The notes under the pieces: model-generated
Databases searched by the model: none
What the model was told of the DNA's origin: nothing
Seen by the model: only the letters and a program-made list of their open reading frames with translations
Position numbers and translations under genes: made by a program
Shown: positions 745-20,413 of the stretch, piece after piece
How positions within the stretch are numbered: position 1 is the first letter of the stretch
Layout of the letters: each line of letters opens with the position of its first letter
From: Clostridia bacterium
Lineage (GTDB): Bacteria > Bacillota > Clostridia > Oscillospirales > CAG-272
Reading direction: 5' to 3'
DNA length: 47,570 nucleotides
Assembly (NCBI GenBank): GCA_028720145.1
Contig: JAQYLJ010000049.1
Coordinates: 1-47,570 of the forward strand

Positions 745-1158
745 TTACAGATAGAAAAGCAGAAGAAAGACGATGGCGACGACCAGGTGCACCCCGCCCG
801 CTAAATACAGGTAGGCACAACCGGGTTTCTCTTTTCGTTTTTCCCGTTTCTCCGCGACATAGTCGGGATACGACTTTTTCGTCAGGTTACCCGGCTGAAA
901 GATGGTGCGGAAGAACAGCCCGACCGAAAAGGACACGCCGTCAAACGCCCCTTGCCGTGTGCACCACACGAGAAGTCCCGACAAGATCAGCATCACGCCG
1001 GGGATCGTGAACGCATCCGCCAGATAGCGGAAACGGTCTTTCCCCTCGTGCACGCCCGCGAAAAACTCGCGGGCGAGGAGATAGAGGAGCGCGAGTACGC
1101 CTCCGACAGCCAGCGCGACAAGGAAACGAATGAGAAACTTTCTCGTTTTCTCGCTCAA
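745..1158 (-). CDS. DUF3899 family membrane protein
   Basis: 137 residues. An N-terminal membrane segment follows the start, then R-Y-L-A-D-A-F-x-I-P-G and a second segment leading to the motif G-A-F-D-G-V-S-F; a third hydrophobic stretch is at the C terminus. This matches the DUF3899 family of small integral membrane proteins of unknown role. Start choice: a longer reading to 1203 exists, but TTG at 1158 has AAGGAGG nine bases upstream and overlaps the oppF stop in a TTGA arrangement, so translational coupling is likely. It is the last gene of the opp operon; a link to peptide uptake is inferred from position only. Confidence 0.8.
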   Translation of the reverse strand: MSEKTRKFLIRFLVALAVGGVLALLYLLAREFFAGVHEGKDRFRYLADAFTIPGVMLILSGLLVWCTRQGAFDGVSFSVGLFFRTIFQPGNLTKKSYPDYVAEKREKRKEKPGCAYLYLAGGVHLVVAIVFLLLFYL

Positions 1159-2885
1159 AGTCCGAGTTCCTCCTTGTACTTCTGTTCCTCGGGGGTGTTG
1201 CACCAGACGAAATGCCCGGGTGCGACTTCTCTCATCGAGGGTTTCTCCACCGAGTAATCATGTTCGCGGAGCGGCTCATAGGTGATCCGCTTTCTCTTCT
1301 TTTCATACTCCGGGTCGGGGAGCGGAATGGCGGAGAGCAGCGAACGCGTGTAGGGATGGAGCGGGTGACGGAAGAGCTCATCGGAGGTCGCGAGTTCCAC
1401 CATCTTACCGTAGTACATTACCCCGATACGGTCGGAGAAATACTTGACGACCGAGAGGTCGTGCGCGATGAACAGGATGGTCAGACCCATCTTGTGACGG
1501 AGATCGTCCAGCAGGTTAATCACCTGCGCCTGCACCGACACATCGAGCGCGCTGACGGGTTCGTCGGCGATGATGAGCTCGGGGTTCATGATGACGGCGC
1601 GGGCGACCCCGATTCTCTGTCTCTGTCCGCCCGAGAACTCGTGCGGGTAGCGTCCCGCGTGCTCGGGGACGAGTCCGACGGTCTCCAAGACCTCAAACAC
1701 CTTTTTGTCGATGTACTCTTTGTCCTTCACCCCTTGAATCACCAATCCCTCGGCAATAATGTCGCGGACGGTCATACGGGGGTCGAGAGACGCGATCGGG
1801 TCTTGGAAAATCATCTGAATCTTGGTGATGAGGCGGGAAGAGCTGTACCGCTCATGGCTGTATGCCATGACGACCACCCCACCGAGTGCCATCACCACGC
1901 ACAGCACCGTAAATACGGTGGACTTGGCGGAACGCGGCATCTCCAGCGCGGTCTCTTCCGGCTTGTTTTCGTTATAGAAAATCCGAAGCCGTACCGTCTG
2001 CTCCGCTGTCGACACATTGAGGGAGGGGTCGTAATACGCAAGAACCGCCGTATAGGACACTTCCTGTTTGTCTTTCCCCATCACCGTATAGGTCACCGTA
2101 GTGGTTCCCGCCTCCGGGTCTACCGCATCCACGACGGCAAGCACGCCGGAATAACTCCCGAACTGCCGGTGGAACGATGTACCGAAAGCAATCGCCGAGA
2201 CAAGGAAAGTAACCGCCAGCGTGAACAGCACAATCCACGTGACCGTCCACACGATTTTCGGGATCTTCGGAAGTCGGCTGATGGACTTGAAGCGCGCCTG
2301 CTGTTCATCGGTCAGACGCGTCTCGTCTCCGTCCACCTCCGCGAGTGCGGCTGCGTACTCTTCCTTCAGTTGGTGCAGATACTTCTTTTCGCAGTTCTTC
2401 TGGTCGTCTTTTGCGAGACGAATCTGCTCCTTTTGGGCGGCGACCTCTTTCTCCATTGCCGTGCGCTTTTCGGCGAGCGCGGCTTGGTACTCTTCCTCGG
2501 GGAGTGTGCCGTCTTCCTGCTGCTGTTTGAGTGCGGCGGCGTCCGCACGGTATGCCGTTTTCGCCTCTTTGATAGCGTCTTTATAACTGCGGGTACCCGC
2601 GCAAATGCGCTGCCCTTTGAAATAGACGCTGCCCGAAGTAATGTCATACAGTTTGATGATGGAGCGCCCGGTCGTGGTCTTCCCACAGCCGGATTCTCCC
2701 ACAAGTCCGAAGACCTCTCCGCGCTTGATATCAAACGAGACATCGTCGACCGCTTTCAAACTCCCGAAATGCTGAGAAAGGTGTTCAATGTGCAGCAGGA
2801 CATCGTCTTCGGTCGGCTCTTGCTTCGCGCTTTCCGTTTCGGGCGTCGGATGGTCAGTCTGTTCAGTCTTTTTCTCGTCCGGCAT
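1155..2885 (-). CDS. oppF: Oligopeptide/dipeptide ABC transporter ATP-binding protein (OppF-like) with a membrane-spanning insertion
   Basis: 576 residues versus about 320 for typical OppF. Walker A GESGCGKTT (about 63-71), Q-loop FQDP (360-363), signature FSGGQRQR (417-424), Walker B LIIADEP (437-443), H-loop IAHD (473-476) and the OppF-type tail HPYTRSLLSAIP (510-521) are intact. Between the strand after Walker A and the Q-loop lie ~255 extra residues: a charged, coiled-coil-like stretch (about 100-205), a membrane segment (212-234), a small beta-rich domain resembling DUF3592 (244-310) and a second membrane segment (322-343). The ATPase would therefore be tethered to the membrane. Start: ATG at 2885 has AAAGGAG 11 bases upstream; a GTG at 2897 would overlap that site. 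It overlaps the end of oppD by 23 bases. ATPase role is certain; substrate class is inferred from neighbours. Confidence 0.92.
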   Translation of the reverse strand: MPDEKKTEQTDHPTPETESAKQEPTEDDVLLHIEHLSQHFGSLKAVDDVSFDIKRGEVFGLVGESGCGKTTTGRSIIKLYDITSGSVYFKGQRICAGTRSYKDAIKEAKTAYRADAAALKQQQEDGTLPEEEYQAALAEKRTAMEKEVAAQKEQIRLAKDDQKNCEKKYLHQLKEEYAAALAEVDGDETRLTDEQQARFKSISRLPKIPKIVWTVTWIVLFTLAVTFLVSAIAFGTSFHRQFGSYSGVLAVVDAVDPEAGTTTVTYTVMGKDKQEVSYTAVLAYYDPSLNVSTAEQTVRLRIFYNENKPEETALEMPRSAKSTVFTVLCVVMALGGVVVMAYSHERYSSSRLITKIQMIFQDPIASLDPRMTVRDIIAEGLVIQGVKDKEYIDKKVFEVLETVGLVPEHAGRYPHEFSGGQRQRIGVARAVIMNPELIIADEPVSALDVSVQAQVINLLDDLRHKMGLTILFIAHDLSVVKYFSDRIGVMYYGKMVELATSDELFRHPLHPYTRSLLSAIPLPDPEYEKKRKRITYEPLREHDYSVEKPSMREVAPGHFVWCNTPEEQKYKEELGL

Positions 2886-5049
2886 TTTCCTGCTCACTCC
2901 TTTCTTTCATTCTGGCGATCCGCTCGGTCACGATCGCCGGCGGCGTCACCTTGGGGGCATCCGGATGGAGCAGCCAGGTCGCGGCACAGTGGGTGTCGCT
3001 GATGCGGAACATGGGCGGCTCCTCTTCAAAGTCGATCTGCATCGCATACCGGTTACGGTCTGCGAACGCATCTCCCTTGGGAGGATAAATCATGTTCGGC
3101 GGCGTGCCGGGGATGGCTTCCAGCCGTTCGTTCGTGTCGAGGTCGGGCATCGAGGAAAGCAATGCCCAAGTGTACGGGTGCGCCGGAGAATAGAAGACAT
3201 CGTTCGAGGTCCCGTATTCCACGATCTTACCCGCGTACATGACGGCGATCTTATCCGCCATATTCGCCACGACCCCGAGGTCGTGGGTGATGAAGATGAT
3301 GGACAGATGCCGCTCGGCTTTCAGCCGATTGATGAGTTCGAGAATCTGCGACTGAATGGTCACGTCGAGTGCCGTCGTCGGCTCGTCGCAGATGAGGATA
3401 TCCGGGTCGGCGGCGAGGGCAATCGCGATGACGATTCTCTGCCGCATCCCGCCCGAGAACTCAAAGGGATACTGCCGATACCGTTTTCTCGGCTCGGGAA
3501 TCCCGACTTCCTCCATGAGTTTCAGCGCCTTCTGCTTCGCCATACGGCGGGTCAGATGGTTGACGACGCCGGACGCGTTCTCTTTGAGGTAGTCGATGAT
3601 GGCGATCGCCTCTTCGCGGAAATTGCGGTCGGCGCTTACCGCCAAAATCTCCTCGTAGTGTGCGAGCAGTCGCTTGCACAGTCCCACGATATTCTCCCGC
3701 GCGAGGTCCATGTCGACGAGAGCCGGCGGCACGGGCGTCCAGTCGGGGCGATGCCCCTTCTTCTCGGTGTAGCGGTCGTACTTCGCCTGCACCTTCGCCG
3801 CGCGCTTGCTCTCGGAGAGATTCTTCTTGGTTCCTCCAAAATACACCGCGAGCGCGTCTTTCAAGCTCGACGCGAAGGTCTGGGCGAGACTGTCGGGATG
3901 GATTTCCAGCGGGTCGATCGAGCTTTTCACCAGTTGCGAGAGCGAAGCATAGGTCTCTTTTGCGAGGTCGCGGTCGTTCTCGGTCATCTTTCCGAAGGTC
4001 TCCACCGCGGTTTTCAGCGCGTCACAGACGGCGCGTTTCGCCTCGTCATGCACTTCTGCCGAATAGCGGAGAGAGGACTCCACATAGTCGATGAAGTTGA
4101 GCATAAAATGCTCGTCGAGGTATTCGTGCAATACTTGGTTCAGCTCGTGTACCGGGAGGTCCGGCAGCGGCTGACCCGAGAAAGTGAGATAATACCCCTG
4201 CGAGAAGAAGTTTGGTTCCTCTTTCTTCACCGCGTTTTCGAGGATGGTTTTGATTTTCGTGAGGGACTCGCTGATGGCGGTATAATCCCCCGCATGTGCC
4301 GCGGCGCGCGCCGTGGCTTTCACCTGCATCGCCTCGGTGCGGAGCACTTCCGCGTCCTCGTCCGAGACCACATAGGGATGGATCGCCTTGACCGCGATGG
4401 TCATCTCCTCTCGCAGCCGCCGTACCGGGTTCTCAAAGGCGTTCTTCTCGATGAGGAACAGAATGTTCTCGAGTTCTGCGATGGACTCGGTCGCCGCGTC
4501 ACGGGCGGCATTGTATGCCTTTTCGAGCGCGATGTGCTTAAACTCGAACTTATCGAAGTTGCGGCACATCTCCGTGAGCTCTTTTGCCTTTTCGGCGTCT
4601 CCTGCCGCGCTGACCGTCACCATGGTTTGGTTGAGTCTGGCGAGCAGCGAATTGAACGCGTTGCGGCTGGAGCGCTGTCTCGCGCGTCCTTTCAGGAGCA
4701 TCGCCTCGGTGAGCTGTTTCCCGATCCGCATGATGGGGTTCAAGCTGGATAGCGGATCCTGGAAGATCATCGCTATCTTATCCCCGCGGATTTTGTAAAA
4801 CTCATCCTCGGAGATTTTGAGCAAATCCATGCCCTCGTAGAGGATTTCACCGCCCTCGACGATGGAGTTCCCGGCGAGAATACCGAGGATCGCCTTCGAG
4901 GTGACCGATTTCCCGGAGCCGGATTCCCCGACGATGGCGAGGGTCTCGCCCTTTTCGAGGTCGAAGTTAATTCCGCGCACTGCCTGGACTTTCCCGCCCG
5001 GGGTACGGAACGAGATTCTGAGGTTTTTGACTTCAAGTTTCTTTGCCAT
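2863..5049 (-). CDS. oppD: Oligopeptide/dipeptide ABC transporter ATP-binding protein (OppD-like) with a ~375-residue insertion
   Basis: 728 residues versus about 330 for typical OppD. Walker A GESGSGKS (41-48), Q-loop FQDP (96-99), signature FSGGMRQR (531-538), Walker B ILICDEP (551-557) and H-loop ITHD (587-590) are intact. The helical subdomain between Q-loop and signature, normally ~30 residues here, is expanded by residues ~122-500: soluble, mainly helical-looking, no membrane segment, not recognised. The C-terminal cysteine cluster of many OppD/DppD proteins (C-x-F-A-x-R-C...A-M-x-x-C) is present only as a degenerate DAFADRNRYAMQID, so the metal site appears lost. Start ATG follows GGAGGAG; it is 3 bases after the oppC stop. 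Pairs with OppF as the nucleotide-binding subunits. Confidence 0.93.
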   Translation of the reverse strand: MAKKLEVKNLRISFRTPGGKVQAVRGINFDLEKGETLAIVGESGSGKSVTSKAILGILAGNSIVEGGEILYEGMDLLKISEDEFYKIRGDKIAMIFQDPLSSLNPIMRIGKQLTEAMLLKGRARQRSSRNAFNSLLARLNQTMVTVSAAGDAEKAKELTEMCRNFDKFEFKHIALEKAYNAARDAATESIAELENILFLIEKNAFENPVRRLREEMTIAVKAIHPYVVSDEDAEVLRTEAMQVKATARAAAHAGDYTAISESLTKIKTILENAVKKEEPNFFSQGYYLTFSGQPLPDLPVHELNQVLHEYLDEHFMLNFIDYVESSLRYSAEVHDEAKRAVCDALKTAVETFGKMTENDRDLAKETYASLSQLVKSSIDPLEIHPDSLAQTFASSLKDALAVYFGGTKKNLSESKRAAKVQAKYDRYTEKKGHRPDWTPVPPALVDMDLARENIVGLCKRLLAHYEEILAVSADRNFREEAIAIIDYLKENASGVVNHLTRRMAKQKALKLMEEVGIPEPRKRYRQYPFEFSGGMRQRIVIAIALAADPDILICDEPTTALDVTIQSQILELINRLKAERHLSIIFITHDLGVVANMADKIAVMYAGKIVEYGTSNDVFYSPAHPYTWALLSSMPDLDTNERLEAIPGTPPNMIYPPKGDAFADRNRYAMQIDFEEEPPMFRISDTHCAATWLLHPDAPKVTPPAIVTERIARMKERSEQENAGREKD

Positions 5050-5052
5050 GGC

Positions 5053-6639
5053 TTACTCCTCCACACCGCGCAGCGACGGGTTAAAGGCGTCGCGAAGTCC
5101 GTTACCGAACAGGTTGAAACTGATCATCAAAAGCGAAATGACAATCGACGGGAAGATGATGGGATGGAAGAATCCGCTCCCCATCTCCGCCTGTCCTTTG
5201 GCGAGCAGGGTCCCTAAGCTGGTGAGCCCGCTGCGTGCGTCATCGAGCGAGATGATTCCGAGGTAGCTGAGGGAGGTCTCGGAGAAAATGACGCTCGGGA
5301 TAAAGAGTGCCGCACCCGTGATGATCGTCCCGACCGCATTCGGGAAAATGTGTTTCATAATCAGTCGTCTGTCCCGTGCGCCGAGCGTCCGCGCTGCAAG
5401 CACATATTCTCGGTTCTTGAATCGGTAGAACTGCATACGCACCGTCGATGCGGTCCCGATCCACCCCGTCAGAATGAACGCGAAGATCAAAGCACCGATG
5501 GCGCCGACTTTTTCCGCGAGGTGTAACTGGAACAGCACGGTCACGACCATGAACGGCACACCCGACAGAATGTCGGAGAACCGCTCCATGAGCAGGTCGA
5601 CGGCGCCGCCGTAGTAGCCCTCGATGGCACCGTAGATCGCACCGAGTACCAGGTTGATGAGCGCGATCCCCATCGCGAGAATGAGAGAGAACCGCGTACC
5701 GGATGCGATGCAGACGAAGAGGTCCTGCCCTTGGCTGTTCGCACCGAAGATATAGCAGGGCTCAAATCCGTGCTGATACACATAGTAGTCATAGTAGCAA
5801 ACGCGGACATTATACCCCGACTGATTCTTGACCGCATAGCGATACCGATTCGTCACCGTGCTCGGGTCTTCGACCCCCTTTGCGGGGTCACCATCAATCC
5901 GAAGACTGGTGTAGTTGTCGGTGCCGCTGGTCTTATAGATCGGGATAAAGTTCCCGTCATCGTCGAGGACCGCCTCGCCTTTGGAATGCCCGTCACTCGA
6001 CTTTGAATAGGTCTTGTACCAATAGTTCGCGTCAAGAGACGAGAACATCTGCTTGTTGTCCTGATGGGGATAAATCACCTGAATCCCCGTCTCGTTCTGA
6101 TACTCCTGCAACGCCATGTACTCCTCCTTCGTGAGGTCGAGGAAGATATACCCGACGGCATTGTAAGTATCCTGCCGATAGGTGTAGGTGGTCGTGACGA
6201 CGGTTTTTTCGACGCCGTTCACGATAGAGACCGTCTCGTTCTGTACCGAGCCGTAGGTCTTCGTCACTGCGTCGCGTCCGCTCTCCACGCCCATGGCGAG
6301 ATACCGCTGATAAGGGGCAGTCCCGTTCTCATATTTGCGGGTACCGTCCCAGATGCCGCCGCCCGCCCAAGTGGCAACCTTGGGGAACACATCGGCATAC
6401 TGTCCGTCAATATCGCTGACTTCATAGCGGGAAACCAGCGGGGCGATGAGCGAGAACAGAACGAGGAAAACAATAATCACCATGCCGACAATGGAGGATT
6501 TGTTTTTCGCAAATCTCCGCCATGCGTCGCGCATGAAGCCGACCGGCTTGGTTTCGAGTTTCTTGTCGCCAAGGACTCTGTCCTCTTGGACAAAGCGGAA
6601 TTTCTCCGGGGGAATGGCACGAATATTCTTTTCTTCCAT
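5053..6639 (-). CDS. oppC: Oligopeptide/dipeptide ABC transporter permease (OppC-like) with a large ectodomain
   Basis: 528 residues versus about 300 usually. Layout: cytoplasmic N-tail, first membrane segment (about 49-71), then ~215 extra residues (75-292) before the conserved F-G-x-x-x-x-G-Q-D-L-F element that normally follows closely. The remaining membrane segments carry the BPD_transp_1 domain, with the ATPase-contact (EAA) loop AARTLGARDRRLIMKHIFP. The extra region is polar, rich in Tyr, Asn, Asp and Thr, and by topology lies outside the cell, where it could contact the large binding lipoprotein. It starts one base after the oppB stop, so coupling is likely. Permease role is certain; function of the ectodomain is unknown. 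Confidence 0.93.
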   Translation of the reverse strand: MEEKNIRAIPPEKFRFVQEDRVLGDKKLETKPVGFMRDAWRRFAKNKSSIVGMVIIVFLVLFSLIAPLVSRYEVSDIDGQYADVFPKVATWAGGGIWDGTRKYENGTAPYQRYLAMGVESGRDAVTKTYGSVQNETVSIVNGVEKTVVTTTYTYRQDTYNAVGYIFLDLTKEEYMALQEYQNETGIQVIYPHQDNKQMFSSLDANYWYKTYSKSSDGHSKGEAVLDDDGNFIPIYKTSGTDNYTSLRIDGDPAKGVEDPSTVTNRYRYAVKNQSGYNVRVCYYDYYVYQHGFEPCYIFGANSQGQDLFVCIASGTRFSLILAMGIALINLVLGAIYGAIEGYYGGAVDLLMERFSDILSGVPFMVVTVLFQLHLAEKVGAIGALIFAFILTGWIGTASTVRMQFYRFKNREYVLAARTLGARDRRLIMKHIFPNAVGTIITGAALFIPSVIFSETSLSYLGIISLDDARSGLTSLGTLLAKGQAEMGSGFFHPIIFPSIVISLLMISFNLFGNGLRDAFNPSLRGVEE

Positions 6640-6640
6640 G

Positions 6641-7627
6641 TCACTTCGCCCCCATACGAATTCTCGGATCGATAAATCCGTAACTCAAATCGACGACAAT
6701 CCCCGCCGCAAGCCCGATGGCGGTGTAGAAAGCCGAATCCGCCATGAAGAAGTTGTAGTCAAGTGCGCGGATCGCGTTGACATACAGGTTCCCGATGCCG
6801 GGGATGGTGAAGATGTTTTCGAGCACGAGAGAACCGCTCAAAATGCCGACGAACTCCCCGAGAATCATCGGGAAAATCGGTACCATGGCGTTTCTGAGTG
6901 CGTGCCGCACCGTCGCCTGACGGCGGGTCAACCCCTTCGTCCGCGCGAGCAGCATATAGTCCCCCGTCAGCACCTCGGACAGCTCCGCGCGCGTATAGCG
7001 CGTCAGCCCCGCGATTGTCCCGATACTCAGGGCGAAGATGGCGGGAATCAGAGAGCGCACCATCGAGGGGCGGAACAGCTGTGCAAAAATCTCACCGGTC
7101 GTCGTTGTCGCGGTGATTTCCAGTCGTTCCATCAGGATGGGGAACCATCCCAGTTTATAGCAGAATACATATTGCAACAGAAATGCAAAGACAAATGACG
7201 GTACCGAGATACAGAGCATCACCGCTACCGAAATGAAATGATCTTGCCATTTATTCTTTTTGACCGCGGCGAAAATGCCGAGCAAAAGCCCGATCGGCAC
7301 GCTGAACAGCATGGCGAACAGGTTGATTACGATCGTCGCCGGCAATTTTTGCCCGATAATGTGAATGACCGATTGGGTCGGATAGAGGTTCTCTCCCGCC
7401 CCCCAGTCAAACTTTGTCAATACGCGTTTCCAGAAGTTGAAGAACTGTTTGATCAGCGGGTCATAATACCCTTTCGCCTGGCGCTGTGCCTCGACGAGCT
7501 GCTGCGTCTCCGCCGTCCCGCGGACGGGAGGGAGGGGCAGCAGCTTGATGAGGATATAGCACATGGAAAGAATGATGAAGAGCGTCAGCAGCATCAACAG
7601 GATTCGCTTGATTACATATTTCAACAT
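6641..7627 (-). CDS. oppB: Oligopeptide/dipeptide ABC transporter permease (OppB-like)
   Basis: 328 residues, close to the family length. N-terminal membrane segment (about 8-30), extracytoplasmic region to about 105, then five more hydrophobic segments with the BPD_transp_1 domain and the EAA loop LARTKGLTRRQATVRHALRN near residue 230-250. Ends in the characteristic Y-G-F-I-D-P-R-I-R. Start: the frame opens farther upstream, but ATG at 7627 (MLKYVIKRIL, the usual OppB start) has GGAAGG seven bases before it. It forms the membrane channel with OppC. A hairpin upstream should reduce its transcription relative to the binding protein. Confidence 0.94.
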   Translation of the reverse strand: MLKYVIKRILLMLLTLFIILSMCYILIKLLPLPPVRGTAETQQLVEAQRQAKGYYDPLIKQFFNFWKRVLTKFDWGAGENLYPTQSVIHIIGQKLPATIVINLFAMLFSVPIGLLLGIFAAVKKNKWQDHFISVAVMLCISVPSFVFAFLLQYVFCYKLGWFPILMERLEITATTTTGEIFAQLFRPSMVRSLIPAIFALSIGTIAGLTRYTRAELSEVLTGDYMLLARTKGLTRRQATVRHALRNAMVPIFPMILGEFVGILSGSLVLENIFTIPGIGNLYVNAIRALDYNFFMADSAFYTAIGLAAGIVVDLSYGFIDPRIRMGAK

Positions 7628-7642
7628 AATAGCGCCTTCCCG

Positions 7643-7679
7643 AAAAAAGTTTGTGGATGAGAGACTCACCCACAAACTT
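7643..7679 (-). terminator. Intercistronic terminator/attenuator in the opp operon
   Basis: On the minus strand, arms AAGTTTGTGG and CCACAAACTT form a perfect 10 bp stem with extra TGAG/CTCA pairing inside, followed by six T. It lies between the binding-protein gene and oppB, where partial termination or 3'-end protection would give more binding protein than permease. Confidence 0.8.
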
Positions 7680-7715
7680 CGTTAGAATAGTACTTTGCTG
7701 TGTTTTCGCGGAGAC

Positions 7716-10250
7716 TTAACCTTTGTAGAGCGAGTCAAGGTTATTGTTGTTGCTTGCGACGAATGCCTCCCAAGCCGCGTCATCGTAGTTGTAGGTGACA
7801 TGGCGGATGCCGCCGAAGCCGATCAACTGAATGTAGGTATCGGTCCCGTTGTTGTACTTAGCACTCTGGAGTGCGTTGACATATCTGTAAAAGACAGGAA
7901 CATTGACCGTGGTCTGCAACTGAGCCAGTTCGCAGGCGGCGAGCACTTCGACCTTGTAGTCGGTGTCCTTCTTCGCGAACGAGCCGTACAGGGTGTAAAG
8001 GTTATCCTCGTCGTACTCGGAATCCTTCTGGTTGTTGTTCATCCAGGCAGCCCAGTCGTAGAGGGAGTGGGTCTTGTCACCGACCGTGACATCGATGGTC
8101 TTGGACAGAGCATCGAAGCCGTAGTTGTTGGAGTTCGCCGGATCGATGTAGCAGCTGTAAATGATGCCCCAAGGATCCATTGCGGAGCCGCCCCAAGCGG
8201 AGAAGGAGAGGTCCATCCGACCGTCGCCGAGATCTGCCCAGTAGGAATCTTCATCGGCATACGAAACGATGTTCATCTTGATATCCGTGAAGGTGTTCTC
8301 GGGAAGAGCGGCTTTGATGTACTCTTCGATCATCGCGAAGGTGTTCTTGAAGTTCGCAGACGCCTCGCCGACCGTACCGACATTGATGACGACGGTCCAG
8401 CCGTCGGTGTAGATACCGGCAGCCTTCGCTTCGTTGTACGCTTCGGTGAAGAGGTCTCTCGCATAGTTCACATCGTAGCCGGTGATCGCCTCGTAAGCAT
8501 CGTCCAGCGTGTCATAGGTCTCACCGCTGTGATCCTTCCAAGTGCCGTCGCCCTGATCCTCGAAGCCCGCGTAGATGAGCGAGGTCTTCTTCGCGGCGTC
8601 GGTGTCACGGTAGAGCGCACCGGTGTCGGGATCGATGCAGTACATGTAGTTCAGCACACCGAAACCTGCCTGCGATGCGGGCTGGAAGCGCGTGCAGTAG
8701 TTCGCACGGGAGATAGCGAAGGAGATCGCCTTCCGGAAGGTCGCGAGAGACAGCACGCTGTGGTTCTCGAGCTTTTCGGCGTTATCTTCGGTTTGGAGTT
8801 TCGCGAGCGAGCTGTTCATGAAGAACTGGAAGGTGTAGCTCTCCGGCGTGCAGACCAGATAGTCGCTCGTGCCGTAGTCTGCCATCTCGGTACCGTCGAT
8901 GCCGTAATCATCGAGTTTCCCTTGGAGGAAGAGTTCCTTCTCGGTCGCTTTCGCGTTCTCGCCCGTGATGATGGTGTAGTCGACATTGGTGGTCTGGAAC
9001 TGACCGACATGCTTGCCGTCGGTGTAGCCATACCAGTTATCGTTCTTCTTCAGGGTGAAGTACTGGTCGACCACATAGGTGTCCAGCACATACGGACCGT
9101 AAGAAGCGGTGGTTTCGAGGGTCGTGCAGTAGGTCGAGGTCACGAGGTTCTCGTTCACTTCGACTTTGCATGCCTCGTAGAGATCCTTCTTCACGAGCCA
9201 GTTGGAGGACAGGTTGTACAGGATATCGAAGTTGCTGATTTCGGAGTTGAGCGCGATGGTGATTTCATAGTCACCGGTCTTGAACACGCCGACACCGGGA
9301 GTCGCCGTGGTGCCGTCGCCTTCATACGCATATCCGGCATCCTCGTTCGCGACGAGAATGCTCAGCCAAGAGGCGTATTGAGCGCCGACTTCGACATAAG
9401 CGGCATAACCGCCGTTGGTGGGATTGAAATAGGTGTCCCAAAGCATTTTCCCGCTGAACGCATCTTCCGCTTTGCCGGCTTCCCATGCCTCGGGGGTATC
9501 GTAGACGGTCTCATCGGTGAACGACAGCCACTGGGTGATCTCGTTACCTTCCGCATCGACATAACCCTGTGCGTTGTAGAAAGTGTAAGCGTCGATAAAG
9601 ATCTCCTCGCCTGCCGCAACAGCATCGGCGTTAGACGCATATTTCGCACCGATCACATCGTGGAAAGCGGTCTGCGCGCTGTACAGATACAGTTTCGCAC
9701 CGTAGACCGAGAGCGTGCCTGCCGTAAAGGAGTCGGAACGGCGGTTCAGCATCTTCGGGTTCAACTGTTCTTTCATGGAGTAGACATAGTCGTCGGCGGT
9801 GATGGCGGTGCCATCGTTCCATTTCGCGTTCGGGTTCAGAGCGATTTTCCAAACCTTGCCCGCGTCGCCTTCTGCTACGCCGTACTTGCCGACATAGTCG
9901 CTCGTCACATCCACCGGGAAAGCGGCTGCCATTTCGGGCACGAATTCATAGCCGTCTTTGGTAGCGTTGAGCTGGACATCATACAGCCCCATCGTGGTGT
10001 AACCGAGGATGATGGAGTCGGTATTGTTTTCCCAAGTGTGGGGGCTCCAAGTCGTCGGAGAGTTGCTGGCTGCTGCGCGATAGGTGTATGTAGCAGCCGT
10101 GCCTTGGTTGCCGTTGTCGCCGGTGTTGGTACCGCCGTTGTTGGCGCCACCATTGTTAGCCGGCTCGTCTTTCTTGCAAGAGAAAGCCATGGGCAACACC
10201 ATTGCCAACACAACGACCAGCACAAGCAGTCTGAGAAGTGTGCGTTTCAT
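7716..10250 (-). CDS. oppA: Oligopeptide-binding lipoprotein of the Opp ABC transporter (SBP family 5), enlarged
   Basis: 844 residues versus about 500-600 usually. Lipoprotein signal MKRTLLRLLVLVVVLAMVLP followed by lipobox MAFSC (lipid-modified Cys25), then an Asn/Gly-rich linker (30-50). Family hallmarks: T-T-W-S-P-H-T-W near the start of the domain, W-x-D-G-T-x-I-T-A-D-D-Y-V-Y-S, F-R-K-A-I-S-F-A-I-S-R near the middle, and repeated transport-domain motifs. Start ATG at 10250 has GGAGGT a few bases upstream; the frame extends further upstream but without a binding site. First gene of the operon, with a near-perfect promoter. It captures peptides outside the cell and delivers them to OppBC; exact ligand not predictable. 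The extra length parallels the enlarged OppC ectodomain. Confidence 0.92.
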   Translation of the reverse strand: MKRTLLRLLVLVVVLAMVLPMAFSCKKDEPANNGGANNGGTNTGDNGNQGTAATYTYRAAASNSPTTWSPHTWENNTDSIILGYTTMGLYDVQLNATKDGYEFVPEMAAAFPVDVTSDYVGKYGVAEGDAGKVWKIALNPNAKWNDGTAITADDYVYSMKEQLNPKMLNRRSDSFTAGTLSVYGAKLYLYSAQTAFHDVIGAKYASNADAVAAGEEIFIDAYTFYNAQGYVDAEGNEITQWLSFTDETVYDTPEAWEAGKAEDAFSGKMLWDTYFNPTNGGYAAYVEVGAQYASWLSILVANEDAGYAYEGDGTTATPGVGVFKTGDYEITIALNSEISNFDILYNLSSNWLVKKDLYEACKVEVNENLVTSTYCTTLETTASYGPYVLDTYVVDQYFTLKKNDNWYGYTDGKHVGQFQTTNVDYTIITGENAKATEKELFLQGKLDDYGIDGTEMADYGTSDYLVCTPESYTFQFFMNSSLAKLQTEDNAEKLENHSVLSLATFRKAISFAISRANYCTRFQPASQAGFGVLNYMYCIDPDTGALYRDTDAAKKTSLIYAGFEDQGDGTWKDHSGETYDTLDDAYEAITGYDVNYARDLFTEAYNEAKAAGIYTDGWTVVINVGTVGEASANFKNTFAMIEEYIKAALPENTFTDIKMNIVSYADEDSYWADLGDGRMDLSFSAWGGSAMDPWGIIYSCYIDPANSNNYGFDALSKTIDVTVGDKTHSLYDWAAWMNNNQKDSEYDEDNLYTLYGSFAKKDTDYKVEVLAACELAQLQTTVNVPVFYRYVNALQSAKYNNGTDTYIQLIGFGGIRHVTYNYDDAAWEAFVASNNNNLDSLYKG

Positions 10251-10664: not shown

Positions 10665-11438
10665 TTACCAGGTGATCTCACTTACCGGTATGACGACCTC
10701 GTTATCGGTGACCGAGACGATTTTCCCGCTCCGCACACGGATGACCCTGTCGGCCATCGCGGTCAGCGCCCCGTTGTGCGTGATGACGGCGACCGTGGTG
10801 CCCATCTCGCGACAGGTTCTCTCGAGCAGCTCGAGTACCGCTTTCCCCGTGGTATAGTCGAGCGCGCCCGTCGGCTCATCGCAGAGCAGGAGTTTCGGGC
10901 GTTTGGCAATTGCGCGTGCAATGGCGACCCGTTGTTGCTCTCCTCCCGAGAGAGATGCGGGGAACGCGCCGGCTTTCTCAGAAAGACCCACCGCGGCGAG
11001 TGCCTCGTCCGCATCCATGGCATCTTCGGTCAGTCCTGCGGCGAGTTCGACATTCTCGCGTGCCGTCATGTTGGGGATCAGATTATAGAACTGAAAGACG
11101 AATCCCACGGCATTCCGTCTGTACTCGGTGAGGTCCCGCGGCGAAAACGCGGAAATATCCTCCCCATCCACCACGACCCGCCCCGAGGTCGGTCGCTCCA
11201 TCCCGCCGAGGATGTTGAGCAGTGTGGTCTTCCCCGCGCCCGACTCCCCCACAATGACGGAGAATCCCCCGCGTGGGAGCGTAAAGGTTGCGTCCGAGAG
11301 CGCAGTCACCGTGACCGCCCCCGTGCGATACTCTTTCGTAACCCCCTCGAATGAAACAAAGCTGTCAGCCATGCCGTTCGACCTATCGGCTGTCTCTGTG
11401 ATGCCATGCCCCTCGGATGTAACAAAGCCGTCTGCCAT
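10665..11438 (-). CDS. ABC transporter ATP-binding protein (MacB/LolD type) with duplicated N terminus
   Basis: 257 residues. Walker [11 protein letters not shown]-loop FQFYNLIP, signature [15 protein letters not shown], Walker [13 protein letters not shown] and H-loop ITHNG mark the MacB/LolD/FtsE-like class, which normally partners FtsX/MacB-type permeases for lipoprotein, peptide or stress export. No permease lies beside it, so it is an orphan here. Residues 1-10 ([10 protein letters not shown]) are repeated as [10 protein letters not shown] at 23-32, where the ATPase domain proper begins; the DNA is duplicated too. The first ATG has GGAG at good spacing, the second only a weak AGG. Neighbours are divergent in function, with a tRNA on the other strand upstream. 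Confidence 0.88.
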
Positions 11439-11815: not shown

Positions 11816-11892
11816 CGGGGTGTGGCTCAGCTTGGTAGAGCGCTTGGTTCGGGACCAAGAGGTCGCAAGTTCGAATCTTGTCACTCCGACCA
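11816..11892 (+). tRNA. tRNA-Pro (anticodon CGG)
   Basis: 77 bases with encoded CCA. Acceptor CGGGGTG pairs with CACTCCG (one G-U); D-arm GCTC/GAGC; anticodon stem CTTGG/CCAAG with loop TTCGGGA giving anticodon CGG; T-arm GCAAG/CTTGT with TTCGAAT loop. Decodes CCG proline codons. Fragments of its 3' half are found downstream in direct and inverted orientation. Confidence 0.95.
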
Positions 11893-11934
11893 TAGGAACA
11901 GAGGGGTTTCCGCAAGGGGACCCCTCTGTTTCTA
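11893..11934 (+). terminator. Terminator hairpin of tRNA-Pro
   Basis: AACAGAGGGGT (11897-11907) pairs with ACCCCTCTGTT (11920-11930), with extra outer TAG/CTA pairing and a short T-run. It starts directly after the tRNA CCA end. Confidence 0.75.
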
Positions 11935-11958
11935 TGGGTCCGGTTCCCGGACTCGTGT

Positions 11959-12015
11959 TCGCTTTCGCGAACCGAATCTTGTTTCGCCTGCGGCGAATGT
12001 TGCACTCCGACCAAA
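11959..12015 (+). repeat. 57-bp repeat, copy A, ending in tRNA-Pro-like 3' sequence
   Basis: Identical to 12240-12296. It contains CGAATCTTGT and CACTCCGACCA, both present in the tRNA 3' end, separated by a ~20-base insert with the hairpin TTCGCC/GGCGAA. It looks like a duplicated, interrupted tRNA tail. Confidence 0.8.
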
Positions 12016-12239
12016 AGACAGAGGAGGGTTCTTGCGACCCTCCTCTGTCTTTTGGTCCAATGTTGAGAGCCGAACTTGCGACCCTTTTCGCTCCCGAACC
12101 AATTCGGGACCAAGGGTTTCAAGCCGAAAACAGCCCGGTGGGCTATTTTCGGCGCAGAAAAAGCTGAAAAACCCGGCGTCGAAGACGCGAGCCGGCGAGC
12201 GTCTCGCGACGCCGCTGTTTTTCGCGAGGGCATCGCAAG
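12013..12239. repeat. ~227-bp flanking repeat, copy 1
   Basis: Near-identical to 13621-13845, in direct orientation on the other side of the TIR gene. It begins with a strong hairpin (GACAGAGGAGGG/CCCTCCTCTGTC). It then holds exact inverse complements of the tRNA T-arm (CGAACTTGCGACC, 12071-12083) and anticodon region (CCCGAACCAA, 12093-12102), followed by a GCCGAAAA/TTTTCGGC hairpin. A minus-strand frame crosses both copies but has no ribosome-binding site. Confidence 0.88.
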
Positions 12240-12296
12240 TCGCTTTCGCGAACCGAATCTTGTTTCGCCTGCGGCGAATGTTGCACTCCGACCAAA
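12240..12296 (+). repeat. 57-bp repeat, copy B
   Basis: Exact second copy of 11959-12015, abutting the 227-bp repeat. As with the tRNA and copy A, it is followed at once by a stable hairpin. Confidence 0.8.
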
Positions 12297-12297
12297 T

Positions 12298-12351
12298 AAG
12301 CACCGTAATTATGATACGAAACCGTATCGTAAAAGCGGTGCTTGTTTTTTA
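12298..12351 (+). terminator. Hairpin/terminator after repeat copy B
   Basis: Outer stem AAGCACCG/CGGTGCTT (12298-12305, 12336-12343), inner stem GATACG/CGTATC, then GTTTTTTAT. It probably insulates the tRNA region from the TIR gene. Confidence 0.7.
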
Positions 12352-12525
12352 TCTGTAAGCCTTGATTTATAAGGCTCTTTCTTGTTTTTATGGGTGAGAT
12401 AAGTGTCCGTGTCAAAATAACAAGTATTCTTTCTGCTGAGTTTTTGAGGACTTTAACTTCAAAATCATACTGTTACTATTTATTCTGAAACTTAACAAAA
12501 GATAAGTGTCAGAGTGTGAAACTTC

Positions 12526-12553
12526 TTGATTTTTTTTAGTTTTATGGTAAAAT
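12526..12553 (+). promoter_or_regulatory. Possible promoter of the TIR gene
   Basis: TTGATT (12526-12531), 16-base spacer, extended -10 TGG-TAAAAT (12548-12553), 34 bases before the start codon, in strongly AT-rich DNA. Confidence 0.5.
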
Positions 12554-12587
12554 ATATAAAATAAAAACAAAGACGGAGCTTTGCTGT

Positions 12588-13496
12588 ATGATTGAAAAAG
12601 TTTATCAAGGAACCGGCCCATATGTATTTGTTTCATATTCTCATAAAGATAAAGACTTGGTTTTGGAAATTATCAACTCCCTTATGTTGTGTGCGTGTAA
12701 TATTTGGTATGATACCGGTCTTCATGCCGGCGAAGACTGGAATATTGAAATAGCTGAGCATTTATTCAATGCCGAGTGCGTGTTGTTTTTCGTTACATCA
12801 AACTCCATACAGTCCGAGTATGTAAAAGACGAGTTGAATTTTGCGAAATCCAAACAAAAAAAGATTTATCCTATCTTTTTAGAAAATATAACCTTACCTC
12901 TTTCTTTGGAATTACTGCTTGGCAGAGCACAGGCGATTATTTGTTCAGATGGCGATATCAGCGATAGTCGGTTCAAATTAAGAGATAAAATCAAAAAAAA
13001 TTTGCCAAACAATGTCTTTCAAACTATATCCGATCCTTTTTATGCAGGTGAACACAATCTCTTTTACTTGAAAAATACCTCTTATGAATTTCCTGACGGT
13101 ACTTATTTTGCCGGAGAGGAACATAATTCGTTTGAAATTAGCATTGTAAATTCAAGCAACGAAAACAACACTCTTATATATCGGTACCAAGCGCGTCCTG
13201 CATATGATATGTCATATTCACTAAATAATGTTTCTGTTTTTGACGATCCATATTTTTGCGATGTTGATTCTTCTGTTTTGTTTCTATCATTAGCACTAAC
13301 TTTTAGCGGAAAATACCCGACTTCTTTGCCCGATTTGGATATCGTTTTGACTATAGCCATATCTCGCATTGAATCGTCATCCCCGCGTGTCACTTTGGTC
13401 GATTATAAATGCAAAGGTAATTTTTCCGATAGAGAACAAGCCTTTATTAACGGAGTTGTTCATGATATCGAACAATCTTTTGTAAAGAACAACTGA
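12588..13496 (+). CDS. TIR-domain protein, candidate NAD-cleaving or defence protein
   Basis: 302 residues. Residues ~11-140 form a TIR domain: YVFVSYSHKD (12-21), NIWYDTGLHAGEDW (38-51), the helix with acidic candidates for the catalytic Glu (E54/E57), VLFFVTSNSI, then S-E-Y-V-K-D-E-L. Bacterial TIR domains often hydrolyse NAD+ or make signalling nucleotides, commonly in anti-phage defence. Residues ~150-302 match nothing I recognise and may sense or regulate. No signal peptide or membrane segment. GGAG lies nine bases before ATG. The gene is much more AT-rich than its neighbours, stands alone on the plus strand, and is bracketed by direct repeats beside a tRNA, which suggests horizontal gain. 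Defence role is inference. Confidence 0.88.
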   Translation: MIEKVYQGTGPYVFVSYSHKDKDLVLEIINSLMLCACNIWYDTGLHAGEDWNIEIAEHLFNAECVLFFVTSNSIQSEYVKDELNFAKSKQKKIYPIFLENITLPLSLELLLGRAQAIICSDGDISDSRFKLRDKIKKNLPNNVFQTISDPFYAGEHNLFYLKNTSYEFPDGTYFAGEEHNSFEISIVNSSNENNTLIYRYQARPAYDMSYSLNNVSVFDDPYFCDVDSSVLFLSLALTFSGKYPTSLPDLDIVLTIAISRIESSSPRVTLVDYKCKGNFSDREQAFINGVVHDIEQSFVKNN

Positions 13497-13620
13497 TGCT
13501 ACGAAATCTACCTGGCATAGTATGCAAAGCTACTTTGCAAAGCCCCAAGAGTTAAGTGTCACCGTCTGCACCGCTTTTTGCACCGCATCGGCAGTCGTAT
13601 CCAAATTATAATCAGTAATC
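13497..13620. other. Spacer after the TIR gene, no gene seen
   Basis: Contains a short GCAAAG/CTTTGC hairpin. Just before the second long repeat, at 13607-13618, is the 12-mer TATAATCAGTAA, identical to the -10 region of the tRNA promoter (11799-11810). This suggests the second repeat came from a tRNA locus that lost the tRNA body. Confidence 0.6.
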
Positions 13621-13845
13621 AAAAGACAGGGGGGTTCTTACGACCCTCCTCTGTCTTTTGCTCCAATGCTGAGAGCCGTACTCGCGACCTTTTTCGCTCC
13701 CGAACCAATTCGGGACCAAGGGTTTCAAGCCGAAAACAGCCCGGTGGGCTATTTTCGGCGCAGAAAAAGCTGAAAAACCCGGCGTCGAAGACGCAAGCCG
13801 GCGAGCGTCTCGCGACGCCGCTGTTTTTCGCGAGGGCATCGCAAG
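13621..13845. repeat. ~225-bp flanking repeat, copy 2
   Basis: Direct copy of 12013-12239 with a 2-base deletion in the first hairpin and scattered substitutions, mostly in the first third. Past GCAAG the two diverge completely, marking the repeat edge. Confidence 0.88.
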
Positions 13846-13949
13846 CTACTTCGTAACAAAAATCCGCCCCCTCTCCCTCGAATTACCGAATGACTATTTA
13901 GCGTGTTTTTTATCGTTTTTCAGTCAAAAATCAGTCAGGAAACAGCCAT

Positions 13950-13981
13950 ATAAAAAGCGGGACATTGCTTTTTGTCCCGCC
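13950..13981 (-). terminator. Distal terminator of the surface lipoprotein gene
   Basis: GCGGGACA (13957-13964) pairs with TGTCCCGC (13973-13980); on the minus strand it is followed by TTTTTAT. Second of two in tandem. Confidence 0.8.
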
Positions 13982-14010
13982 TTTTCAATGAGGCTTTTTA
14001 CTGTCAAATA

Positions 14011-14091: not shown

Positions 14092-17000
14092 TTAGGTTTC
14101 TTCTTTCTTGCCGACCTGCAAGACACCGTCGGCGGCGGCGTAGACCGCCTTGTGCTCGCTCGTGTAGGCCGCAATCTCGGTCGTCACAGACGAGGTCTCC
14201 CCGTCGGGCGAGAGGGATGCGTAGTAGAGCGAGGTGGAGTTCGCCGTGATGGTGTACTCGGCAAAGCAGTTGAAGTCCCAACCCTCGATGTATGCGGTCG
14301 TATCGTCGATGGCGGAGAAGGCACCCGTCAGTCCGCTGTTGCCGCCCTTGGTCACGCGGATCGCAAACATGAACTCATCGACATTGGTATATTTCTTCAC
14401 CAATTCGCCGCACATTGTGTTCATGTACTTCTGGATGCTCGCGGCATCGTTCTTCGTGTTGGATCCCATGTAGATGAAGGAAACCACAACCGTCTTGTTG
14501 GTCGTCTTATCGATGAGCGGCATCGCGATAAGCTGCGTGTCGGTACCGATCTTCGCCGACTCGGAAATGACGCGATCCGTCTTGTCGGTCAGTTTAGTGC
14601 TGTCATACGGCACAATGACCATAGGACGATAACGGGTGTCCGCCTCGAACTTCGAGAGACTATACATAATCCCGATCGCACCGCCCGCCGTGCTTCCTCT
14701 GACGCAAATTTCATCGATACTTGCCCACGCCGCCGCCTGTGCTTCGGAGGGGGTCAGGTTCGAGATACCGCTATAGAACACAAGGTCGGGGTTATCCTTT
14801 ATGATGGCATCCGCAACACCCGTCTTCCCGTACTTGGTTTCCAAGCTGACATAGCGGGTGTTCACCGAGATGGGGTCGGGCGAGATCTCGACAAGGACGG
14901 GTCTGACCTCCAAATCCGCCTGCACCGCGTCGAACGCGGTATCCCAACCCTTGCACCGCTGCCCTGCGGGCACCGTCACATTCGTAGGTGCTTCGGCGGC
15001 GGTCCCTGCGGGGACTCTCTGGGTCGAGAGGACGCTGCCGTCGGTGTCGTAGAAGACCACGGTGTAAACCTTGACATATTCGGCAACCACGCTTGTGTCC
15101 TCGGTGACATTCTCATAACTGCCGTTCCAGCCGGTGAAGAGGTAGCCTTCCACCGTGGGAGCAATCGGCGGGGTCGCATTCGCCCCTTGGTTGACCGTCT
15201 GTGTGGCGATAACCGTCACGCCGTCTCTCTCATAGAAAGTCACGGTGTAGGTCGCAATGGTCTCATAGGTGGCGACCACCGAGCCGCTCTCGGTCACGGG
15301 GTCAATCTCGACACCCGTCCAACCGATGAACTTGAACCCGAGGAGTTCGGGCGGGGTCGGCGGGGTCACGGTCTCACCCGCGTTGACCTGTACGGTTTCA
15401 AGAACGGTGGTGCCGTCTTTCTCATAGAAAGTAATCGTGCAGATGTCTACTGCTTCATACAGCGCTTCAACCCGAACATTTCCGCTGACCGCGGTAAGCG
15501 TGGGGACGCTCCACCCGAGGAAGCGGAATCCGAGGTACGCGGGCGCGTCGGGATACTCGGACGCATCCACCGAGGTGCCGTTCGCCGCCTGCATGGTTTT
15601 CAAGGTGTTGCCGTCTTTGTCGACAAAGGTCACATCCCAGATCGGGTAGTGGACCGGCGAGAGGGTGTCACCCGCGTTCATCCACTCATACGCGCCGTCC
15701 AGCGCGGACGCATTCGCGTTCAGGAGTGCCTTCGCCTCGGAAACCGAAGCGACCTCGGTAATGGTGATGGAGAGAGCGGCACTGCCGATGTTTGCGACAT
15801 GGGTCGCCATACCCTCGTTCAGCGAGGGGATATAGTACATTTTGCTCACGGCGAGGGTCTGTGCACCGGTCTGTGCCATACCGATGACGCTGCCGACATA
15901 GGTCGCGCCCTCGGGTGCATTGACCTTCACATTGGCGAAGCAGTTTTCAATCACCGCGCGCTTGTTGAATGCCATTCTGCCCGCGAAGCCGCCGACCGAG
16001 TCGTTGCCCGTAACGGTGCCGTTCGCGACACAGTTCTTCACGGTGATGACCTGCGAGTCGCCGACGAGGTCACCGACAAAGCCGCCGACCTTGCGGTTCC
16101 CTGTTACGGTCGCGGTCGAAGAGCAGTTCAAAATCTCCGCCAGCATACCGCCACCGAGGAATCCGCCGACGCATTCCGCGCCGGAGCCGTCCTCCATGTG
16201 TGCGGTGACCGTACCGACAAACGAGACATTCCGAATCGCCGCTTTGCCGAGTCCCGCACTCTCTTTTTGAGAATAGAGGGTGTGCCCGACAGCGCCGCCG
16301 ACATAGCAGCCGCTGTTAAAGGTGTTGCTCGAATTATCGTAAATGCCCTTTTCGGAGGCGAGTTTGCCCGCGTAGGCGATGACATCCGCCTCGGCAGAGC
16401 AGTTTTGGAGCGTGCCGCAATGCAGCTGTCCGATGAGGGAGCCGGTGTACGAACCCGAGTTCTTGCCGTACGCGACCCCGCGGTTGACGACCTTACCCGT
16501 GAAGGTGCAGTTATCGATGAGACCGCCGTCCATTCTGCCGACAATACCGCCGACACGCTTGATCCCGGAGATATCGGCGTCGGTCAGGTGGAGGTTCTTG
16601 ATGGTCGCGTTCTTCGTATAAGCGAAGAGACCGGAGTTACAGATTTCGCTGTGCGCGGTCAGGTGCGAGATGGTGTGCCCCTGCCCGTCGAAAGTCCCGC
16701 TGAACGGGTGATAGTAGTAGTTCGCGGAGGATTTCTCATAGATCAGTTCCCACCCGATGGGGGTGAAGTCCTCGCCCGTCATGTCGATGTCGTCCGCGAG
16801 CACGAAGGTCAGATTCTCGCAGGTGTTCCCGGCGTTGACATACGCGGCGAACATACGAAGCTCCTCGGGTGTGGAGATGGTGATCTTCTTCTCCGCCGTC
16901 GGCAAAACTTCACCGCCGTAGACCTCAGTCATGGTGTACTCGGTTCTGTCGTCAAACTGGTTCGTCACGGGAACAATCACGACCTCGCCGCCACCCGCAT

Positions 17001-20061: not shown

Positions 20062-20148
20062 AATAACCTCCCGTGCGGTAAATCTTTTTGTGTCTCCGAG
20101 GGAAACGACCCGCACCGCCGTTTCCGAAGAGCATTTTCTTACAATTAA

Positions 20149-20178
20149 AATATACCACAATCTATAAAATACGGGCAA
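20149..20178 (-). promoter_or_regulatory. Probable promoter of the surface lipoprotein gene
   Basis: Minus strand: TTGCCC (20173-20178), 18-base spacer, TGG-TATATT (20149-20154). The untranslated leader is about 80 bases. Just upstream, the sequence TTTTTCGAGGGAAT occurs twice on the plus strand (about 20198-20231). Confidence 0.55.
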
Positions 20179-20413
20179 TCGGCAGATTCCCCACAATTTT
20201 TCGAGGGAATCTGTACGGTTTTTCGAGGGAATTTCGTCAATGTTTTTTGCATTTGTGCACTTTGCTCATTTTTATCACACGCACTTGTTATGATTTTCCC
20301 GCGAGTTTTCTTGCGAGCGGGCGCGCCCGTGCCCCTCGCTCTGCTCCGACTTTGCACGCCGAGAAGAAATCGTCAAGCAAAGTGCAGCACCCGACGATTT
20401 TGAATATCCGCGC

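Follow-up and report, generated by a model that had tools for sequence, protein, structure and literature searches.

An enlarged six-gene oligopeptide importer of Clostridia and a mosaic operon with a predicted membrane hairpin in OppF

The opp operon of the window

The DNA analyzed here (the window) is a stretch of 47,570 nucleotides, contig JAQYLJ010000049.1 of the Clostridia bacterium assembly GCA_028720145.1, and represents one contig of a draft genome (1.9 Mb, 68 contigs, 98% complete). Five open reading frames (ORFs) on its minus strand, running from 10250 down to 1155 in the order oppA-oppB-oppC-oppD-oppF, encode the subunits of an ATP-binding cassette (ABC) importer. Pfam searches with the operon returned SBP_bac_5 once, BPD_transp_1 twice, and ABC_tran together with oligo_HPY twice. 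By these families, its gene order and its complete ATPase motifs, the operon is assigned to the Opp/Dpp kind of oligopeptide importer, with peptide uptake as the predicted function. The genes and their additional parts are as follows.

7716..10250, minus strand: OppA, peptide-binding protein, 844 amino acids (aa) (SBP_bac_5, E 1.4e-30)
6641..7627, minus strand: OppB, permease of normal size, about 328 aa (BPD_transp_1, E 7.9e-36)
5053..6639, minus strand: OppC, permease with ectodomain, 528 aa (BPD_transp_1 and OppC_N)
5755..6417, minus strand: OppC ectodomain, residues 75-295, between transmembrane helices (TM) 1 and 2 (alignment)
2863..5049, minus strand: OppD, ATPase, 728 aa (ABC_tran and oligo_HPY)
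3580..4677, minus strand: OppD helical insert of 366 residues (125-490), within the helical subdomain, between Q-loop and signature (alignments)
1155..2897, minus strand: OppF, ATPase, 576 aa (from ATG at 2885) or 580 aa (from GTG at 2897)
2283..2591, minus strand: OppF helical (coiled-coil-like) insert, residues 103-205, between strand 3 and the Q-loop (alignment)
1848..2285, minus strand: predicted OppF membrane hairpin, TM at about 214-238, outer domain at about 239-321, TM at about 322-345 (hydropathy, homologues, model)
745..1203, minus strand: small membrane protein of the DUF3899 family, 152 aa, overlapping the oppF end (PF13038, E 1e-9)

The length of OppA was counted from the ATG at 10250; the ORF would comprise 881 aa from an upstream TTG. 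A preliminary description of this locus, made from the sequence alone, had stated that OppA, OppC, OppD and OppF are enlarged and OppB is of normal size, and the ORF lengths agree with this statement (median OppB of relatives, 322 aa). It had also stated that the ATPase motifs are intact, and a pattern search located Walker A, Q-loop, signature, Walker B and H-loop in both ATPases of the window (residues 41, 96, 531, 551 and 587 of OppD; residues 67, 364, 421, 441 and 477 of OppF). Alignments confirmed that the extra parts occupy distinct sites, namely an ectodomain in OppC, an insert in OppD and a predicted membrane-spanning insert in OppF. The last of these was refined: the OppF insert proved to consist of two pieces, a helical part that is common to the relatives and varies in length, and a rarer hairpin.

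The DUF3899 gene had been overlooked in that description, and its position makes it a sixth member of the predicted operon. The window protein scored 39.1 bits against PF13038 (cut-off 23.4). A DUF3899 ORF lay directly after oppF in all 81 loci examined, starting between -107 and +71 bases from the oppF end, and no such ORF was found in four other Opp operons (L062, L198, L200 and L201). No paper with the term DUF3899 was found in the literature searched.

Distribution of the enlarged importer

We monitored the OppD insert and the OppC ectodomain by profile searches of 197 genomes of the order to which the window belongs. Each part was present in 26 genomes, and both were present together in 25. 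The two genomes with a single part are explained by contig ends that cut the operon: in one (G112, OppD insert only) the contig stops inside oppD, and in the other (G094, OppC ectodomain only) a 3806-base contig stops at about the end of oppC. From best to weakest, the matches had E-values of about 1e-157 to 1e-101 for the OppD insert and about 1e-72 to 1e-45 for the OppC ectodomain, and beyond them neither profile matched anything at 1e-4 or better, indicating that the subfamily is all-or-none in this 197-genome sample. A single-sequence search, using the window's OppD insert as query, had first given 27 of the 197 genomes; its weakest match (G033, E 4e-4) was not regained by the profile, and no Opp match lies at that place. 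In a sample of 164 genomes from the phylum, in which 17 of the 21 genomes listed fall outside the class, the window alone matched. With the OppC and OppD marks joint in 25 of 197 genomes, the six-gene peptide importer looks common in its order.

Of 172 relatives found in a wider genome scan, 80 were kept as loci. These were labelled as Clostridia, Lachnospiraceae, Oscillospiraceae and similar groups, and many were of gut or faecal origin; all but one were metagenome-assembled genomes (MAGs). Eight were dropped because at least one subunit was missing on the contig (L122, L125, L127, L138, L157, L168, L170 and L175), and four because of a short, mis-picked or cut OppF (L103, L161, L172 and L180); L101 was retained despite a partial OppA. 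The remaining 68, together with L188-L190, ten further loci and the window, gave a set of 82 loci with median ORF lengths of 856.5 aa for OppA, 322 aa for OppB, 516.5 aa for OppC, 722.5 aa for OppD and 403.5 aa for OppF. The relatives keep the same opp gene order, and their OppB measures 316-370 aa. The OppF of L103 and L037 is short in frame (298 aa). The lengths given for the OppC of L111 (668 aa) and the OppD of L190 (894 aa) count from the earliest start codon of the ORF and may be too great. Over the 82 loci, the motif patterns failed for OppF in 4 (signature), 14 (Walker B) and 11 (H-loop) cases and for OppD in one case each (signature and Walker B); strict patterns or wrong ORF picks are the likely cause.

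Sequence comparison thus defines the enlarged Opp as a discrete conserved subfamily that occurs in Clostridia and is encoded by six genes, oppABCDF and the DUF3899 gene. No paper describing such an enlarged importer was found in a literature search judged by titles and the starts of abstracts.

Identity and conservation of the inserts

The inserts were searched separately, as the preliminary description had proposed. Pfam gave nothing above a cut-off for the OppD insert, the OppC ectodomain or the OppF insert. A sequence profile of the OppD insert found no solved relative in the PDB, the four weak entries (three sc-apCC and one CTLA-4 binder) having E-values of 0.09-0.38. In the AlphaFold model of OppD the insert is helical, with block values of the predicted local distance difference test (pLDDT) of 73-94 over residues 121-500; the ATPase part is modelled poorly, 232 of the 728 residues having a pLDDT below 50. 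Structure searches with the whole OppD model, in which the insert was not searched alone, returned ABC proteins among the matches listed.

That description had named an assembly error joining unrelated genes as what would refute its view. The genome of the window is a draft, and 79 of the 80 kept relatives are MAGs, which leaves some room for such an error. However, the inserts recur in frame and at one fixed site across many assemblies and are therefore neither chance nor an assembly join; for the inserts this explanation is refuted, and we regard it as extremely improbable overall. Ordinary drift, in which Opp loops grew without function and size alone would be the finding, is also very unlikely. 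It would accommodate the variable length of OppF in loci that have a whole OppF without a hairpin (346-435 aa) and the enlargement of other Opp types in the family at different places. Against it, the insert sites are fixed, an alignment of the OppD insert over 18 sequences contains 19 invariant columns, and the OppC and OppD parts are paired; together these features point to selection.

A rare membrane hairpin in OppF

When the first 25 relatives were aligned, all showed a charged insert before the Q-loop of OppF that resembles a helix and differs in length among them, being short in L059 and L060. Hydrophobic helices within this insert were observed in one of the 79 OppF ORFs of the kept relatives (L163). 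Window OppF shows hydropathy peaks at residues 219-237 and 327-345. A two-sequence hairpin profile matched a single genome among the 395 in the window's family and six of 251 genomes in the family of the genome that carries L163. Four of the six matches were strong (L163's own genome, G929, G945 and G913), with OppF ORFs of 567-576 aa and hydropathy in agreement, giving five genomes with the hairpin altogether. The hairpins of the four other genomes are 37-41% identical to that of the window, and 31 columns are invariant in all five. Of the two weak matches, G788 was inspected and was not alike, and G862 is a stand-alone membrane protein. Seven further hairpin matches were weak (E 0.0017-0.0099).

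The AlphaFold model of OppF places helices at residues 103-128, 134-189 and 214-238, strands at 252-287, and a further helix at 322-338. In these five genomes, OppF seems to be an ATPase subunit that crosses the membrane with a part outside. By its distribution, the hairpin is a rare elaboration, distinct from the conserved enlargement of the subfamily. The preliminary description had raised the question of whether the four enlarged subunits always occur together; they do not, since the hairpin was present in one of 79 OppF ORFs of kept relatives and in a single one of the 395 family genomes searched, and this rarity rules out strict co-evolution of all four enlargements.

No Pfam family exceeded a cut-off in any of the five hairpins, and DUF3592 was not among their matches up to E 1. 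A stand-alone protein of 362 aa (L191, 8624-9712, plus strand) has an N-terminal TM-soluble-TM arrangement that resembles the OppF hairpin (E 1.6e-5) and weakly resembles DUF3592, with a score below the cut-off; it is a possible source of the hairpin domain. The window's own genome contains one sub-threshold DUF3592 match. A DUF3592 origin of the hairpin may be considered an indirect lead.

The window operon as a natural recombinant

The nearest relative of the window seen in OppD (85% identity) and in the C-terminal part of OppF (93%) was L101, which has no hairpin. The identity between the two was 57% in OppB and 52% in OppC. Among the kept relatives, the most similar OppA (53%), OppB (68%) and OppC (67%) were those of the hairpin operon L163. 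Window DUF3899 was 72% identical to that of L101 versus 27-35% to those of the hairpin operons. Trees were built with 47, 37 or 43 of the 82 loci. The five hairpin operons formed one clade in the OppB+OppC tree (Shimodaira-Hasegawa-like approximate likelihood ratio test support 100, 47 rows) and in the OppA tree (support 100, 43 rows). In the OppD tree, the window was sister to L101 (support 100), apart from the other hairpin operons. In the approximately unbiased test, a single hairpin clade was rejected for OppD (p 1.8e-57), and a grouping of the window with L101 was rejected for OppB+OppC (p 3.7e-7).

Part by part, the window and L101 were 76% identical in the OppD insert, 95% in the C-terminal core of OppF, 29% in the OppF coil, 38% in the OppC ectodomain and 70% in the OppC membrane part. 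For comparison, we used 23 other pairs whose OppD inserts are 70-85% alike, and these showed 56-95%, 57-94% and 83-99% identity in the OppF coil, OppC ectodomain and OppC membrane part, respectively. The drop in the coil to 29%, against 56-95% in the comparison pairs, therefore exceeds fast change. At the DNA level, the identity between the window and L101 rises sharply near the oppD start, from 0.52 to 0.91. Within oppF, over about 2600-1900, it drops from 0.86 to roughly 0.5, part of this stretch being unalignable, and beyond the dip, still in oppF, it returns to 0.72-0.91.

These trees and identity profiles identify the operon of the window as a natural recombinant: OppABC and the hairpin resemble the hairpin lineage, and the remaining parts (OppD, DUF3899 and the ends of OppF) resemble the hairpin-less one. 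The hairpin therefore goes with OppABC and not with OppD. A second mosaic, L169, has an OppD beside those of the four other hairpin operons; its OppB and OppC lie beside L055 and L058, and its OppF of 415 aa lacks the hairpin. This locus would fit the mosaic interpretation and is also explicable by a hairpin gained late.

The suggestion of the preliminary description that the additions may have co-evolved is partly supported by these comparisons. In its favor are the pairing of the OppC ectodomain with the OppD insert, seen in 25 genomes of the 197, and the hairpin's tracking of the OppABC clade across recombination; against it are the rarity of the hairpin and the different lineages of the window's OppC and OppD parts.

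A proposed role for the OppF hairpin

In solved peptide importers, the ATPases are cytosolic and joined to the permeases via coupling helices (PMC12136057). According to the same source, DppB of Escherichia coli pairs with DppD and DppC with DppF, and DppB binds DppA through an outer "scoop" that also closes the cavity. The tracking of OppABC rather than OppD by the hairpin fits this published DppC-DppF pairing. We propose that OppA docks on OppB and OppC, with the OppC ectodomain (about 220 residues in the TM1-TM2 loop) as an added outer platform, which may be a larger counterpart of the DppB scoop on the other permease. OppF would lie under OppC, by analogy with DppC-DppF, and the hairpin would anchor it there, so that the outer domain of OppF could meet the OppC ectodomain or OppA and docking of the binding protein could be mechanically linked to the OppF ATPase via the hairpin. 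The OppD helical domain and DUF3899 would most likely provide another surface, on the inner side, for assembly or regulation. A contact between the hairpin and OppC or OppA predicts joint exchange of the hairpin and OppABC, as is seen in the window.

The best explanation of the data, to which we assign a probability of roughly 55%, is thus an enlarged six-gene Opp importer in which the hairpin would hold OppF next to OppC and the outer domain would meet the ectodomain or OppA. A stronger form can be offered only tentatively, the odds being somewhat against it: OppF would be a membrane-spanning ATPase that touches the OppC ectodomain or OppA, docking would be signalled directly via OppF and not through coupling helices alone, and the natural recombinant would make the partner specificity visible. 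If so, one importer part could link energy consumption within the cell to the capture of cargo on its outer side. The window, with the hairpin, and L101, with a 95% identical OppF core and no hairpin, form a natural swap in which such outside-to-inside signalling is testable.

Two other roles were weighed. It is doubtful, though quite conceivable, that the inserts are regulatory, the OppD domain, the OppF coil and DUF3899 binding a cytosolic or membrane partner or a metabolite that gates the ATPases, and the outer parts only fitting the larger OppA. The OppD insert is large, conserved and predicted to be helical, and DUF3899, present in 81 of 81 loci, is L101-like in the recombinant, as OppD is; however, Pfam finds no ligand-binding family in the inserts, and the OppD insert is without a solved relative by sequence. 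We consider it unlikely that the hairpin is only a membrane anchor, with an outer domain lacking a specific partner and an OppABC link that is a by-product of recombination. The hydrophobic C-terminal OppF hairpin of another Opp type (L198 and L200, not L201), apparently a convergent anchor that lacks a large outer domain, would suit this view, as would the absence of the hairpin from 78 of 79 OppF ORFs of kept relatives. On the other hand, the outer domain retains invariant positions although the sequences are 37-41% identical to that of the window, and the OppF insert and OppABC are two separate tracts, between which OppD and the OppF start resemble the other lineage, so that simple linkage fails to explain their joint exchange.

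Several observations weigh against OppF being anchored beside OppC in contact with its outer partners. The absence of the hairpin from those 78 ORFs is one, and the window hairpin is only 37-41% identical to the other four. Confidence in the OppF model is low in the outer part and the second membrane helix (pLDDT 32-63 over 241-340). Coil identity between the window and the other hairpin operons is 39-45%, as is usual for operons with OppD inserts this far apart, so that the coil taken alone does not point to an origin in the hairpin lineage. The OppF coil tree groups the five (support 96), yet a grouping of the window with L101 was not rejected (p 0.605), and in the OppF C-terminal tree one hairpin clade was barely rejected (p 0.049). 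Co-segregation depends mainly on one recombinant lineage. Furthermore, the co-occurrence of the OppC and OppD parts may reflect mere common descent from one ancestral operon, and since the OppC ectodomain and the OppD insert of the window belong to different lineages, inheritance of the two as a matching pair is not required.

Neighboring features of the window

Just upstream of the opp operon, a separate ABC ATPase ORF of 257 aa lies at 10665-11438 (minus strand). A tRNA-Pro and a TIR-domain gene (12588-13496, plus strand) span 11816-13496, near a stretch of low guanine-plus-cytosine content (41%, 12001-14000); the region looks like a small acquired island, perhaps for defence. An ORF of 2034 aa at 14092-20196 (minus strand) contains seven Listeria-Bacteroides repeat stretches, GLUG motifs and an Ig-like domain and probably encodes a large surface protein.

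Comparison with known systems

The chains of E. coli OppBCDF and DppABCDF (PDB 8z21 and 8z1v-8z1y) are about 300-336 aa long, without the inserts. E. coli DppD and DppF each bear a four-cysteine [4Fe-4S] site (PMC12136057). The present importers lack these four cysteines, as in all 82 loci the last 130 residues hold 0-1 cysteine in OppD and 1-2 in OppF. OppABCD and DppABCD of Mycobacterium tuberculosis (PDB 8j5q-t and 8wd9) are peptide importers with related ATPase domains and gave the best PDB sequence match of OppD; they differ in that both ATPase domains reside in one chain of 548-612 aa.

The best NCBIfam matches of OppD and OppF were the Mollicute families MMSYN1_0167 (561 positions) and MMSYN1_0168 (649 positions), whose model lengths alone suggest inserts in both ATPases. 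The NCBIfam cut-offs were not reached for MMSYN1_0167 (456 versus 740), MMSYN1_0168 (392 versus 800), Opp3B (245 versus 480) or Opp3C (275 versus 450). The stand-alone protein at L191 shares with the hairpin a TM, a short soluble part and a second TM, but, unlike OppF, does not carry them within an ATPase.

Other Opp types of the same genome or family (L062, L198, L200 and L201) are likewise peptide importers with some enlarged subunits; they differ in OppB, which measures 523-532 aa in three of them, in OppD (436-610 aa), and in the C-terminal position of the OppF hairpin, present in two. The two are L198 (7812-9167) and L200 (7780-9090), in which an OppB of 523-532 aa and an OppD of 586-594 aa accompany the C-terminal hydrophobic OppF hairpin, perhaps a second way of anchoring OppF in the membrane.

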